From a virus: 33,674 nt of DNA. The stretch is from IMG/VR virus record IMGVR_UViG_3300006802_000283, positions 1 to 33,674 of that record. One strand, written 5' to 3'. The first letter of the stretch is position 1. Each line of letters opens with the position of its first letter. The position numbers and the translations under genes were made by a program. Positions 19,141 through 27,913 of this stretch are shown piece by piece. The notes under the pieces were generated by a model. The model worked only from the letters and a program-made list of their open reading frames with translations, did no database searches and was not told the origin of the DNA.

Positions 19141-19494
19141 ATGGCAAATAAAATCAAGTACTGGCGCAATCAACGGGATATGGATGTAGCAACCCTTTCC
19201 AAGAAGTCCAAGGTTCCTCGATCCACTATATATAAGTATGAGGCCGATGCGCGAATGCATCCGCCGGAGACTGTGTTGATTTGTCTCGCCGATGCGTTGG
19301 GCGTCACCAGTAAGCAGCTCATTAGCGGTTGCACCGGACGAGCTAAGGCCGAGGATACAACTACGTGTAGCGCAAAGCAGCGGTTAAATGCAATAGAGCA
19401 GACTCTGCTTGATGCGATGCTCGATGCGCCGACGGACACCCCGCAACCGATCCGCGAGATGTTCAAGAAGATGCACAAGGATCTACGCGGGTGA
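19141..19494 (+). CDS. XRE-family repressor, short
   Basis: The 117-residue protein has an XRE helix-turn-helix in its first 65 residues (DVATLSKKSKVPRSTIYKYEADARMHPPETVLICLADALGV). The remainder is short and helical, without the LexA/CI-type Ser-Lys peptidase domain, so induction by RecA cleavage is not expected. TGAGGTG lies upstream. It faces the Cro-like gene and is the likely lysogeny or early repressor. Confidence 0.85.
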   Translation: MANKIKYWRNQRDMDVATLSKKSKVPRSTIYKYEADARMHPPETVLICLADALGVTSKQLISGCTGRAKAEDTTTCSAKQRLNAIEQTLLDAMLDAPTDTPQPIREMFKKMHKDLRG

Positions 19495-19661: not shown

Positions 19662-19814
19662 ATGCATGATCCAAAACTAGCGAATTTTACGAACACCGAG
19701 CTTGTATCGTATATCCTCGGAAGCGACATACTAAGCGGTGATGACCTTAAAACCTACATCATTGCGCTACTGGTATCGCGACTTGAGACAGCCATTGGCT
19801 CTGGGGACGAGTAG
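19662..19814 (+). CDS. 50-residue hypothetical protein
   Basis: ATG at 19662 starts four bases after the previous stop. The product (MHDPKLANFTNTELVSYILG...) is acidic and helical. Its stop shares TAGTG with the first glycine-repeat gene, placing it in the same coupled series. Confidence 0.5.
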   Translation: MHDPKLANFTNTELVSYILGSDILSGDDLKTYIIALLVSRLETAIGSGDE

Positions 19815-20014
19815 TGCGGGTATTGAAAAACGCTCGCTCGGCATCCTCAATTGACTCGAGTTACGGTCGGGGCGAGGGCTGGGGCCGGGGTAGCGGCGCT
19901 GGCAATGCCCGGGGTAAGGGCTGGGGCGAGGGCTGGGGTAGTGGTCGCGGCAAGAGTGCTGGATGGGGCTGGGGGGACGGTTGGGGATATGGATCTCGCT
20001 GGAGTGGCGAATGA
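19814..20014 (+). CDS. glycine-repeat microprotein 1
   Basis: A GTG start at 19814 shares TAGTG with the upstream gene and gives a 66-residue protein with leader MRVLKNAR, akin to the MKILKHKY leader of the next members. From residue 17 on, Gly is at nearly every second position (GRGEGWGRGSGAGNARGKG...), with Trp, Arg, Ser and Asp between. The stop overlaps the next start (ATGA). Function unknown. Confidence 0.7.
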   Translation: MRVLKNARSASSIDSSYGRGEGWGRGSGAGNARGKGWGEGWGSGRGKSAGWGWGDGWGYGSRWSGE

Positions 20015-20151
20015 AGATTTTGAAACATAAATATTTTTATATTTACCCCAGCTCTGGCGATGGCTGGGGTAATGGCAGTGGCGCGGGTAGGGGAGTTTCT
20101 GGCGGCAATGGCATGGGTTGGGGATACGGATATGGCAAGGGCGGCGGATGA
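20011..20151 (+). CDS. glycine-repeat microprotein 2
   Basis: The 46-residue product starts MKILKHKYFYIYPSSGDGWG and continues with X-Gly dipeptides to the end. The first 24 bases of the gene are identical to those of microproteins 3 and 5. The start and stop both lie in ATGA overlaps with neighbours. There is no separate ribosome binding site, so reinitiation after the upstream stop is likely. Confidence 0.75.
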   Translation: MKILKHKYFYIYPSSGDGWGNGSGAGRGVSGGNGMGWGYGYGKGGG

Positions 20152-20399
20152 AGATTTTGAAACATAAATATCCCTATCCCGGATCGGGCGATGGCAGAGG
20201 TAACGGCAGGGGCAACGGCAGGGGTAATGGCTGTGGCTGGAGCAATGGCAGTGGCGCGGGTAGGGGAGTTTCTGGCGGCGATGGCAGGGGTTGGATCGAT
20301 GGCAAGGGCTATGGCCTGTATGGGGGTGGCGGTAGCGACCAGGGGCATGGTAGCAGCAGCATCAGTAGCGGAGTAGCGCTACTGAGGATGGAACCATGA
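20148..20399 (+). CDS. glycine-repeat microprotein 3
   Basis: The longest member, 83 residues, starts MKILKHKYPYPGSGDGRGNG. A stretch of about 45 bases in its middle is almost identical to microprotein 2, showing duplication. The C-terminus loses the repeat (SSISSGVALLRMEP), as if a frameshift or new sequence had been added. Coupled by ATGA on both sides. Confidence 0.75.
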   Translation: MKILKHKYPYPGSGDGRGNGRGNGRGNGCGWSNGSGAGRGVSGGDGRGWIDGKGYGLYGGGGSDQGHGSSSISSGVALLRMEP

Positions 20400-20509
20400 A
20401 AATTTTGAAACCTAAAAATCGTTATGACCTGAGCGTTGGCTATGGCAGGGGCTATGGCTGGGGCATTGGCACTGGCAGGGGCGCGGGGTACGAGTGGGGC
20501 AGCGGATGA
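20396..20509 (+). CDS. glycine-repeat microprotein 4
   Basis: The 37-residue product starts MKILKPKNRYDLSVGYGRGYG and ends YEWGSG. It has the same leader with two changes and the same ATGA coupling. Confidence 0.75.
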   Translation: MKILKPKNRYDLSVGYGRGYGWGIGTGRGAGYEWGSG

Positions 20510-20628
20510 AGATTTTGAAACATAAATATGCTCTCTCCTCCTGGAGAAATGGCGGCGGGAATATTTGGGGAGAGGGCAGAGGCGGGGGCGCGCACTTCTG
20601 TGGCTCTGGGCAAGGGCAATGGTACTAG
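20506..20628 (+). CDS. glycine-repeat microprotein 5
   Basis: The 40-residue product starts MKILKHKYALSSWRNGGGN, with G-rich, less regular repeats, one Cys and the end GQGQWY. It is the last of the first cluster; a gap of about 70 bases and a normal ribosome binding site (TGAGGT) precede the next gene. Confidence 0.7.
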   Translation: MKILKHKYALSSWRNGGGNIWGEGRGGGAHFCGSGQGQWY

Positions 20629-20701: not shown

Positions 20702-21082
20702 ATGAAGAAGACAATTATTGGTAATCAGACTGATCAACAAGTAATTGATGTTGACAACTGGGGTGAGCAAGGCGACTTACGTATCGTTCGCTGTAAGCGA
20801 ATCCCAGATAAGTTTCAAACGCAAACCGACGATGTGATTGTCGCTCATTCTGAAACCGGGCATCACCACGTCGTTGATCTAAACGAAGTGGATGTGTTTC
20901 ATCACCCGGAAAATGAGCGTAAAAAATACATTCGTTTGAAAGGAGAATCAGCTAACGTGATTCACATGCGAGATCATCGAACGCACAAAACACAACGTGT
21001 TGTGGGGAAACCTGGCGATGTCTTTAAGTTGATTCGCCAAGTTGATTTTTGGAAAGAACAACAGCGTATCCGGGCCGACTAA
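20702..21082 (+). CDS. conserved phage protein with HSETGHHHVV motif
   Basis: The 126-residue protein has a central AHSETGHHHVVDLNEVDVFHHP (about 48-69) and flanking strand-rich segments, perhaps a small barrel. I recall similar His-triad segments upstream of DUF6745-type genes, but function is unknown. Metal binding by the His cluster is possible. The stop shares TAATG with the next start. Confidence 0.7.
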   Translation: MKKTIIGNQTDQQVIDVDNWGEQGDLRIVRCKRIPDKFQTQTDDVIVAHSETGHHHVVDLNEVDVFHHPENERKKYIRLKGESANVIHMRDHRTHKTQRVVGKPGDVFKLIRQVDFWKEQQRIRAD

Positions 21083-21819
21083 TGGGATTGGCTTATCACA
21101 TCTTGGGATCGCTAAGAATGCGGCAAGACGACGATACAGCATTTGTGATGCGGGAAGTTAATCGTCTTGCCGATGAGTTTGGACTACGGGCTATCATCTG
21201 TGACGGCCCTACGGAGGTAATCGAGAAAACGGGATTAGCTGTACAAGCGTATGACTATGCTGCTGAATGCTTAGAGTGTTTGCAATCTTTGAGACAGCAT
21301 TGTCACCGGATATTTATCTATGATGATGTGATTCTCGTGCAGATGCTCCCCACAAGGGTACTAGTTGCACAGGGGGTAGGCTTGCACTCAACAAGCGAAC
21401 CTGCGCTTGAGTATGCAGATGGCACTAAAGAATATTATGTGCGGGGGGAACAGGCACCCGCAGAGTTCTATGTGCCGGGGTACTTGAATGCCGAAATGAT
21501 TCTCGAACATATGCGCGACAACATCGATACGCAATCGATCGCGATCGAGATCTACGGCTGGCCCAACATACTTTCAGAGTTAGAAGCAGAAGTGATCGAT
21601 GAAGACGAACCGCACATCGGTACTTTGTACGAAGCATCGTTGGGCGATGAACCTTTTCGACTTTTGAAATGCGTATGCGGTACGGGCGCGGAAGTAGTAC
21701 TACCCGTGCTTATGTCACACACCACGGCCTTGGAAGCAAACAGAGCCACGTTTGCGGATGAAGATGATGAGGCTGATGGCAGCATTGAATTTTTAACACA
21801 TTTGGAGGCAAGAACATGA
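21082..21819 (+). CDS. DUF6745-like protein
   Basis: The product is about 245 residues from the ATG at 21082 (TAATG coupling). The part from about residue 100 on (GVGLHSTSEPALEYADGTKEYYVRGEQAPAEF ... AEMILEHMRDNIDTQSIAIEIYGWP ... GTLYEASLGDEPFRLLKCV) follows the DUF6745 pattern. No catalytic function is established for the family. The stop overlaps the DUF6948-like gene by 4 bp. Confidence 0.65.
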   Translation: MGLAYHILGSLRMRQDDDTAFVMREVNRLADEFGLRAIICDGPTEVIEKTGLAVQAYDYAAECLECLQSLRQHCHRIFIYDDVILVQMLPTRVLVAQGVGLHSTSEPALEYADGTKEYYVRGEQAPAEFYVPGYLNAEMILEHMRDNIDTQSIAIEIYGWPNILSELEAEVIDEDEPHIGTLYEASLGDEPFRLLKCVCGTGAEVVLPVLMSHTTALEANRATFADEDDEADGSIEFLTHLEART

Positions 21820-22193
21820 ATAACCTAATCAATTTGATCAATGAAACTTTTATCGGTAAACGAGTAGTCATCCGGTCCAACTCCGCAGGAGTGTTCGTAG
21901 GCACGTTAGTAGCTAGAGACGGGCAGACAGTACTCTTAAAAAACTCTCGACGCATTTGGGGTTGGGAAGGGGCGGCATCGCTCTCGGAGCTAAGTCAACT
22001 CGGCGTTAAAGCGGATCGGAAATCGGCTTGTAAATTTCCAATCCCGATGGCCGAGCAGGTGGTTGAAGAAGTAATCGAGATTATTCCGGCAACTAAGGAA
22101 GCGCTGAATAGCCTCGACTCTACACCGATTTGGGGATTCGTAAACACCGATTACACGATCACTGAAGATGGTACTGCGGTTGCTAATAGTTAA
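21816..22193 (+). CDS. DUF6948-like protein
   Basis: The 125-residue protein begins with IGKRVVIRSNSAGVFVGTLVARDGQTVLLKNSRRIWGWEGAASLSELSQLGV, the characteristic DUF6948 pattern, then a helical C-terminal part with EVIEIIPATKEALNSL. It looks like a small beta-barrel. It is coupled by ATGA to the DUF6745-like gene. Function unknown. Confidence 0.75.
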   Translation: MNNLINLINETFIGKRVVIRSNSAGVFVGTLVARDGQTVLLKNSRRIWGWEGAASLSELSQLGVKADRKSACKFPIPMAEQVVEEVIEIIPATKEALNSLDSTPIWGFVNTDYTITEDGTAVANS

Positions 22194-22317
22194 GGCCAAA
22201 TACCCTCGGGGGGATCTCCCCCCGAGAGCAGACGGTGAAAGGCGTGTGTGGACAAGCCATATCGTTCGCCGGGGCAACGGCTGGGGCGGAATAGTATCAA
22301 CGGAGATTGACTTATGA
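22168..22317 (+). CDS. degenerate glycine-repeat microgene
   Basis: ATG at 22168 (or TTG at 22180) opens a 49-residue frame overlapping the end of the DUF6948-like gene. It contains VKAKYPRGD, close to the LKHKYPYPGSGD start of microprotein 3, and a short RRGNGWGG remnant. Its stop overlaps the next start in ATGA, exactly as in the intact clusters. A GC-rich hairpin (22205-22226) lies within it. Coding status is uncertain. Confidence 0.4.
   Translation: MVLRLLIVKAKYPRGDLPPRADGERRVWTSHIVRRGNGWGGIVSTEIDL
22205..22226 (+). promoter_or_regulatory. GC-rich hairpin CTCGGGGGG-N4-CCCCCCGAG
   Basis: A perfect 9-base stem with a 4-base loop, just after the DUF6948-like stop codon. No T-run follows, so it is not an ordinary terminator; it may limit reinitiation or protect the message. 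Confidence 0.6.
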
Positions 22318-27120: not shown

Positions 27121-27558
27121 ATGATGACGAAAGCGCTTGATAAACAAGTTGGTGGTAAGCATTATCAGAAGTTTGCGATCCAACCTTTAGAGTTCATTTC
27201 CAAAAACGATCTGTCGTTCTCGGTGGGAAACGTTGTGAAGTACGTTTGCCGACATAAGTTTAAAAACGGAGCGGAAGACATCCAAAAAGCAATTCATTAC
27301 TGCTTGGTGATCCTTGAATTTGAGTACGGTATTGTGCAAGAAGGCGAGAACCCTGATTTGATTGCAGAGAAAGAGGCATCCGCCGCCCTTCGCGTATCGC
27401 TACGTGATGCCCACGACAAGCTGGCTACGCTGCAACAGGAGTATGAGACAGCACAGCATAACATTAATCAGTTGTTGCTCGAGAACGCACAGTTACTAGA
27501 TGAGCAGCCGGTAGACTACCCGCCCATTGGGACTTCAAATGAAGATTATAAAAGCTAA
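27121..27558 (+). CDS. DUF3310 protein with C-terminal coiled coil
   Basis: The first 75 residues (KQVGGKHYQKFAIQPLEFI ... LSFSVGNVVKYVCRHKFKNGAEDIQKAIHYCLVIL) match DUF3310, a small phage domain often called nucleotide-kinase-like but of unproven activity. Residues 80-130 form a coiled coil (LRDAHDKLATLQQEYETAQHN). AAGGAG lies upstream. The last 20 bases overlap the first gene of the second glycine-repeat cluster. Confidence 0.85.
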   Translation: MMTKALDKQVGGKHYQKFAIQPLEFISKNDLSFSVGNVVKYVCRHKFKNGAEDIQKAIHYCLVILEFEYGIVQEGENPDLIAEKEASAALRVSLRDAHDKLATLQQEYETAQHNINQLLLENAQLLDEQPVDYPPIGTSNEDYKS

Positions 27559-27706
27559 CTGGGTAGCGGCCCGTGGATATGGCTGGGGCCGTGGCTATGG
27601 CTATGGCTGGGGCCATGGCAATGGCAAGGGCTATGGCGATGGTTGGGGGTATGGCTATGGCAGCGGCACGGGCAGTGGCTGGTGGAGCTGGAGGAACTTT
27701 GAATGA
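27539..27706 (+). CDS. glycine-repeat microprotein 6
   Basis: The 55-residue product starts MKIIKANWVAARGYGWGRG and then has 18 consecutive X-Gly dipeptides (X = R, Y, W, H, N, K, D, S, T), ending with WWSWRNFE. It starts inside the DUF3310 gene in another frame, and the stop overlaps the next start (ATGA). Confidence 0.75.
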   Translation: MKIIKANWVAARGYGWGRGYGYGWGHGNGKGYGDGWGYGYGSGTGSGWWSWRNFE

Positions 27707-27819
27707 AGATTATATACTTTAAGTATCCAATATCGCAGAGAAGCGAGACGCATATGGGCGCAGGTACAGGTAGTGGCTGGGCAGGGGCTGGGGGGATGAT
27801 GACATATGAAGATTATTAA
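27703..27819 (+). CDS. glycine-repeat microprotein 7, reduced
   Basis: The 38-residue product starts MKIIYFKYPISQRSETHMGA, has a short GTGSGWAGAGG part and ends MMTYEDY. It has the leader but few repeats. Overlaps of 4 and 14 bp with neighbours. Confidence 0.65.
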   Translation: MKIIYFKYPISQRSETHMGAGTGSGWAGAGGMMTYEDY

Positions 27820-27913
27820 AGCTAACTGGGTATGGGGCGACGGCAATGGCTATGGCCGGGGCACCAATAGAGGAGACGGGTATGTGGGTATCCTCTGGGA
27901 GGTAAGGCAATGA
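27806..27913 (+). CDS. glycine-repeat microprotein 8
   Basis: The 35-residue product starts MKIIKANWVWGDGNGYGRG and ends ILWEVRQ. Its first 27 bases differ at one position from microprotein 6. The stop overlaps the exonuclease start (ATGA); GGGAGGT in its last codons serves as the ribosome binding site for that gene. Confidence 0.7.
   Translation: MKIIKANWVWGDGNGYGRGTNRGDGYVGILWEVRQ

Follow-up and report, generated by a model that had tools for sequence, protein, structure and literature searches.

The locus described here raises the question of what a run of very small overlapping genes, in which nearly every second residue is glycine, encodes in a phage genome and which genetic partner accompanies it. 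The window, the whole stretch of DNA analyzed, corresponds to a 33,674-base virus record in IMG/VR. As reported in a preliminary description, five consecutive small open reading frames (ORFs) of 66, 46, 83, 37, and 40 codons occupy positions 19814 to 20628, with TAGTG as the overlap at the start of member 1 and ATGA, at an offset of −4, at the four other junctions (Table 1). The first 24 bases are identical in members 2, 3, and 5, as stated there. The nearly identical stretch of about 45 bases noticed inside members 2 and 3 measures as a shared block with 82% identity over 88 nt, and the leader with an in-frame X-Gly tract, ascribed to all five members, is clear in members 1 to 4 and weak in member 5. 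A second set of three microgenes, absent from that description, lies at 27539 to 27913 with overlaps like those of the first; its strong X-Gly tract is confined to member 6, the repeat being weak in members 7 and 8.

Table 1. Microgene clusters and the DUF6948 region of the window
Feature	Position	Strand	Remarks
50-aa ORF	19662..19814	+	No family match; stop overlaps the GTG start of microgene 1 (TAGTG)
X-Gly microgene 1	19814..20014	+	GTG start, leader MRVLKNAR, 66 codons
X-Gly microgene 2	20011..20151	+	Leader MKILKHKY, 46 codons, ATGA overlap
X-Gly microgene 3	20148..20399	+	Leader MKILKHKY, 83 codons, ATGA overlap
X-Gly microgene 4	20396..20509	+	Leader MKILKPKN, 37 codons, ATGA overlap
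X-Gly microgene 5	20506..20628	+	Leader MKILKHKY, 40 codons, ATGA overlap, weak repeat
DUF6948 gene, predicted Sm/LSm fold	21816..22193	+	PF22253 profile match, E 4.2e-24
Repeat-less ORF in usual X-Gly slot	22168..22317	+	Leader-like IVKAKYP, also GNGWGG
X-Gly microgene 6	27539..27706	+	Leader MKIIKANW, 55 codons; start within end of DUF3310 gene
Microgene 7	27703..27819	+	Leader MKIIYFKY, 38 codons, weak repeat
Microgene 8	27806..27913	+	Leader MKIIKANW, 35 codons, short repeat; stop overlaps next gene (ATGA)

None of the five ORFs of the first cluster contains an internal stop in its own frame, versus one to seven stops in the other two frames. Glycine fills 14 of the 15 alternate positions in the best 30-residue stretch, whereas 200 dinucleotide-preserving shuffles average 7.2 and never exceed 10. 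The residues at the X position are diverse in the window (R 14, Y 13, W 12, S 10, D 7, N 7, A 6, and others; n = 90), and its arrays do not show the alphabet of about three residues described below. Pfam matches of the tracts (TrAA12, keratin-associated) are weak, lie below the cutoff, and are regarded as compositional.

The window contains one DUF6948 gene, located on the strand common to both microgene arrays; the first array is 1.2 kb upstream of it and the second 5.3 kb downstream. Positions 21816 to 22190 score 84.9 bits with PF22253 against a cutoff of 27. DUF6948 is a domain of unknown function, and the literature search found no paper naming it. The window protein used as a single query has no close relative. 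Directly behind the gene, where other phages carry the repeat ORF, the window holds a repeat-less ORF, possibly the remnant of an X-Gly gene. A strong G/C palindrome (CTCGGGGGGATCTCCCCCCGAG, positions 22203 to 22230) is situated close behind the DUF6948 stop, within this ORF. Between array 1 and DUF6948 lie a His-rich 126-aa ORF without a family match (20702 to 21082) and the gene for a DUF6745 protein (21091 to 21819). The window also encodes DUF2800, an Enc34-type ssDNA-binding protein, DNA polymerase A, and an SNF2 helicase; PADLOC returns only generic HTH matches, for the ORF at 19141. X-Gly microgenes occur in none of 75 loci with relatives of the window DNA polymerase. With its wide X alphabet, eight copies, and arrays that do not touch DUF6948, the window is an atypical form of the module outlined in the following.

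By their sequence, the microgenes are a variant of a two-gene module that is widespread in phages, consisting of a small protein with a predicted Sm/LSm fold and a coupled dipeptide-repeat protein. In the latter, Gly or Ser occupies every second position and the remaining positions draw on a small set of residues. A DNA pattern for relatives, ATGAAR followed by seven GGYNNN units, recovers four of the eight window microgenes and matches at least 120 IMG/VR stretches. Clustering of the array neighbors reveals small proteins encoded directly upstream, with DUF6948 relatives in 15 loci and three other small protein families in 13 further loci. Because the DNA pattern might itself have produced this linkage, the search was reversed and IMG/VR was scanned with the small protein alone, which yielded at least 600 stretches. 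Among the best 80 of these loci, 78 show an X-Gly ORF at or overlapping the DUF6948 stop; this set, like that of the second family below, favors closer relatives of the query and includes some near-duplicates and many fragmentary contigs. The X-Gly start is found −35 to +5 bases from the stop, most commonly at −13 or −4. When loci are picked by the DNA repeat pattern instead, an Sm-like gene lies within 1.5 kb of the array in 29 of 40, the window included. Fusion of an X-Gly tract and DUF6948 in a single ORF was not found. PHROG 18306, which matches both genes, was considered as a common link and dropped owing to its weak X-Gly match (E 0.54, compared to 3e-4 for DUF6948).

The pair also occurs in genomes of GTDB, where an X-Gly ORF is coupled to DUF6948 in 45 of 51 loci on bacterial or archaeal contigs with motif and stop. 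These contigs are labeled Neisseria, Sphingomonas, Bacteroidetes, Clostridia, a cyanobacterium, and archaeal MAGs, and the matches may be prophages, phage contigs, or mis-binned sequences. Two contigs of cultured Neisseria strains, L424 (Neisseria gonorrhoeae DSM 9188) and L425 (Neisseria sicca), carry the pair (MSYLDQPLKHGYGNG...), presumably as prophage. Isolated phages with the pair are Pectobacterium phages Sabo and Koroua, Iodobacter phage PhiPLPE, Vibrio phage IKEMa6-1, and Chlorobiaceae phage CV-1-33. The repeat protein of Sabo and Koroua begins with MSKLIKPEKYG and continues with Gly-S/Y/D repeats. Genes for ERF, YqaJ, and RecT are found near the module in a minority of loci, and the neighboring genes suggest that it may be expressed alongside replication and recombination genes. 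In L108, L137, and L163, the contig with the Gly-type array also carries an ATPase gene of the AAA type and another conserved gene, and no Sm-like gene was recognized within the fetched stretch; L108 and L137 have MKYPK leaders.

Arrays upstream of DUF6948 are found outside the window in L156 and in L092, which has four tracts just upstream of the gene. Tandem copies that keep both leader and ATGA overlap occur in L092 (MKEKHNM), L108 (MKYPKG), L131 (MKASVLAG), L137, L173 (MKEMEDLND), and L282 (MNAAILRSGW), indicating that duplicating microgenes are a recurrent behavior of the module; the eight copies of the window are the highest number among the loci examined. The proposal of a self-duplicating microgene family is partly borne out by this recurrence of leader-keeping copies in other phages; that the family stands alone is not supported. 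Scanned in IMG/VR, MKILKHKY gives four matches, all one unrelated sequence without X-Gly, and MKIIKANW gives none, so that the former appears private to the window phage within the data scanned. The conserved elements are the dipeptide repeat and its Sm-fold genetic partner.

The second Sm-like family is followed by Ser-X repeats. It comprises 360 relatives in IMG/VR, and among the best 80 loci, examined by the protein alone, 65 have a coupled Ser-X repeat ORF at the stop, 29 of them via ATGA. Loci L235 to L239, L252, L253, L257, L263, and L264 lack a downstream Ser-X tract and form a useful contrast set for function. AlphaFold2 models reach a pLDDT of 89.7 for the window DUF6948 protein (53 sequences) and of 91.2 for the second family (36 sequences). 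In Foldseek comparisons with the PDB, the first fifty matches of each family are nearly all Sm/LSm chains with a probability of 1.00 and target-normalized TM values of up to 0.76 and 0.81, respectively, at modest best E-values of 1.5e-3 and 1.4e-4. A profile comparison between the two families is weakly positive and confined to the first strands, and a PDB sequence search with the phage Sm-like proteins gives no detectable match. By prediction, both families adopt a small barrel with the Sm/LSm fold.

The existence of the module and the translation of its repeats carry an estimated probability of about 0.95, and the product of the repeat gene is, on the evidence of its sequence, very probably a protein. 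The preliminary description had held the frames to be coding, naming frame-disrupting indels as common as in-frame ones and absence from related phages as observations that would speak against it; besides the openness of the frames, 52 of 56 indels between close relatives keep the frame, and the arrangement is present in many phages. The repeat frame is fixed relative to the coupled, overlapping start. Glycine is encoded by GGC, GGT, GGA, or GGG depending on the locus, nearly uniformly within most loci, and serine by TCG, TCT, TCA, or AGC; these differences between loci argue for conservation of the protein rather than of the RNA. In L216, L399, L408, L416, and L431, the X-Gly tract forms the N terminus of a conserved folded domain. 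This fused C-terminal domain of ∼150 aa, without a Pfam match, contains the motif WH..LTGSC..G and is encoded directly behind DUF6948 on gut-type contigs. In phage CV-1-33 (L210, 5277 to 5522, gene_25), the deposited annotation follows a wrong frame (MAMAMALA...), and the coupled X-Gly frame begins with MDGINYGYGDG; the tract of L430 (MW202478, 1505 to 2077) is likewise annotated in the wrong frame (MAMAMALA...).

The arrays could also be read as the source of a guide RNA. VIPR vrRNA arrays are phage-borne tandem YNNGG repeats with a period of 5 and a GGY/NN pattern (PMC13142463), and one is seen in SUSP1. By analogy, the array RNA itself would be the product, with the GG every six bases as a scaffold, the variable bases as a target code, and the ORFs as incidental. 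Both systems combine fixed G-rich positions with variable ones in short tandem repeats, and both have an adjoining gene for a small RNA-binding-type protein. GG recurs every six bases in Gly-type and Ser-type arrays alike, and synonymous sites are nearly invariant within a locus; for the Ser type, the NGG codon bias may follow from Trp being encoded by TGG only, if units differ by single bases. This explanation is nevertheless very unlikely in view of the fixed frame with its overlapping starts, the in-frame indels, and the fusions to folded domains. The module differs further from VIPR by its period of 6, its translation, and fixed codons that vary between loci, GGA- or GGG-dominated arrays (e.g., L308, L354, and L375) replacing a constant GGY and serine being TCN or AGC by locus. 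Its recurrent partner has a predicted Sm fold instead of a RAMP fold, and Pfam, PHROG, and PADLOC profile searches gave no suggestive match for a RAMP-fold (Vipr) gene. The window contains no period-5 YNNGG array, the Rfam search gave no match, and no conserved structured 3′ tail of the VIPR type was recognized in the arrays. The idea of one hexamer read in three frames, which would have pointed to an RNA product, was discarded, as the A[TP] frames of L115, L123, and L138 are an artifact of the required ATGAAR; these loci have an X-Gly frame with its own start, and L107 falls outside that explanation.

A code could instead reside in the protein. Here, one side chain every two residues, on an extended strand held by the Sm ring, would read or mimic one nucleotide. 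The repeat protein would then be a fast-evolving, sequence-specific nucleic acid recognition element with a three-letter amino acid alphabet, its string arising as units duplicate and single bases change. A limited test, in which X letters were matched with bases across about 3.9 Mb of DNA, bears on this proposal and on the guide RNA and gave support to neither, spacing 1 performing no better than shuffled strings and spacing 3 being saturated and not informative. Such a code is a long shot.

Within a locus, the repeat unit has six bases and nearly all variation falls in the X codon. In the Gly type it affects the first two bases, with about 1 bit each, and in the Ser type the first base, with about 1.5 bits; the third bases of both codons show a median variation of zero. 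The X alphabet consists of precisely D/S/Y in 60 of the 114 Gly-type arrays and of precisely G/R/W in 40 of the 60 Ser-type arrays; the narrow alphabet is thus usual, not universal. The order of X is near random with some internal duplication (LZ complexity 0.90 to 0.92 of shuffles) and differs even among phages with DUF6948 genes >90% identical. By sequence, the repeat gene can form tandem duplicates that retain the leader, and it evolves rapidly as whole units are gained or lost, the frame being kept. Nearly neutral expansion, with replication slippage generating stop-free repeats of little or no function behind the Sm-like gene, would account for the 43 of 56 indels that are multiples of six. 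It would also explain the detectable internal duplications, with complexity below that of shuffles in 24 to 29% of arrays, and the pair L266 and L268, whose flanks are identical and which differ by the loss of a 20-unit block. It is an improbable explanation of the whole, as the repeat stands behind 78 and 65 of the best 80 Sm-like genes of the two families, the same three-residue alphabets recur, and the start overlap is conserved. The concentration of variation at positions 1 and 2 of the X codon, synonymous sites having a median of zero, is, moreover, the reverse of neutral decay. Since synonymous sites are near invariant within a locus, a purely protein-level model needs rapid unit turnover, and the combination with near-maximal X variation would result from such turnover together with selection for X diversity. 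An estimate of dS and dN for the leaders (0.78 versus 0.35) is not relied on, being circular, as the leaders were picked by their amino acid pattern.

For the joint action of the two proteins, an RNP assembly of an LSm ring with a multivalent low-complexity partner is proposed tentatively, at somewhat less than even odds. In this model, the Sm-like protein would form an RNA-binding ring on which the short leader of the repeat protein may dock. The repeat tract would provide a multivalent chain, and ring and chain together could give rise to an RNP assembly or a condensate in the course of infection. Eukaryotic Sm/LSm proteins often have RG-rich or other low-complexity tails; the repeat protein, made in step with the ring, would resemble these tails as a separate, fast-evolving chain. 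RNA binding or self-assembly of the repeat proteins, already suggested in the preliminary description, remains a plausible possibility. Gly-type chains are acidic, with Tyr, and Ser-type chains basic, with Arg and Trp, and a single mechanism may therefore not fit both. The window, with its detached arrays and a repeat-less ORF in the slot behind DUF6948, also speaks against this model.

An anti-host function would assign different roles to the same proteins. The small bacterial protein Rof/YaeO, which has an Sm-like fold, blocks the RNA site of Rho and thereby inhibits it (PMC11018626). The phage Sm-like protein might target a host machine such as Rho, in a Rof/YaeO-like manner, or Hfq, and the repeat protein might serve as a decoy, a nucleic acid mimic (Asp/Tyr), or a binder (Arg/Trp), with its variation allowing escape from the host. 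Conflict would predict the observed variation of repeat order among phages with >90% identical DUF6948 genes, and early recombination genes are found in the gene neighborhood. Both parts of this proposal are judged unlikely: the analogy holds at the level of the fold only, the top structural matches are Sm/LSm ring proteins with Rof absent from the first fifty, and Rof has no repeat partner of this kind. PADLOC gives no match for the Sm-like proteins, and the presence of the module on contigs of many phyla argues against one narrow host target. The RNP assembly is retained as the preferred reading.

The combination of an Sm fold with dipeptide repeats is apparently very common in phages and undescribed, no paper on the module or its pieces having been found in a literature search that was thin in subscription journals. 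In IMG/VR, at least 584 DUF6948 relatives stand behind a single peptide pattern. The gene pair has seemingly been overlooked because the repeat gene resembles low-complexity noise and is either omitted or given a wrong frame in annotations. It connects the Sm fold with low-complexity dipeptide repeats in prokaryotic viruses and provides short, naturally occurring multivalent proteins whose alphabet comprises about three residues. It also raises the puzzle of a highly variable X order at near-constant synonymous sites within a locus. The pair is present in isolated Pectobacterium, Iodobacter, and Vibrio phages and is thus testable now.

Compared with known families, the window protein is a member of DUF6948, whose relatives directly precede X-Gly ORFs, and differs from these by its distance from the arrays. 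The predicted fold relates the phage proteins to the Sm/LSm proteins, namely, eukaryotic LSm1 to LSm8, archaeal SmAP, and bacterial Hfq, a likeness seen in the predicted fold only and not in detectable sequence matches; the low-complexity part is, in contrast, a separate chain in the phages. The repeat proteins themselves are reminiscent of sticker-and-spacer proteins (FUS-type [G/S]Y[G/S], RG/RGG, and SR domains) in combining Gly or Ser with Tyr, Asp, Arg, or Trp but are distinguished by strict alternation, an alphabet of about three residues, very short chains, and their place in a phage operon.
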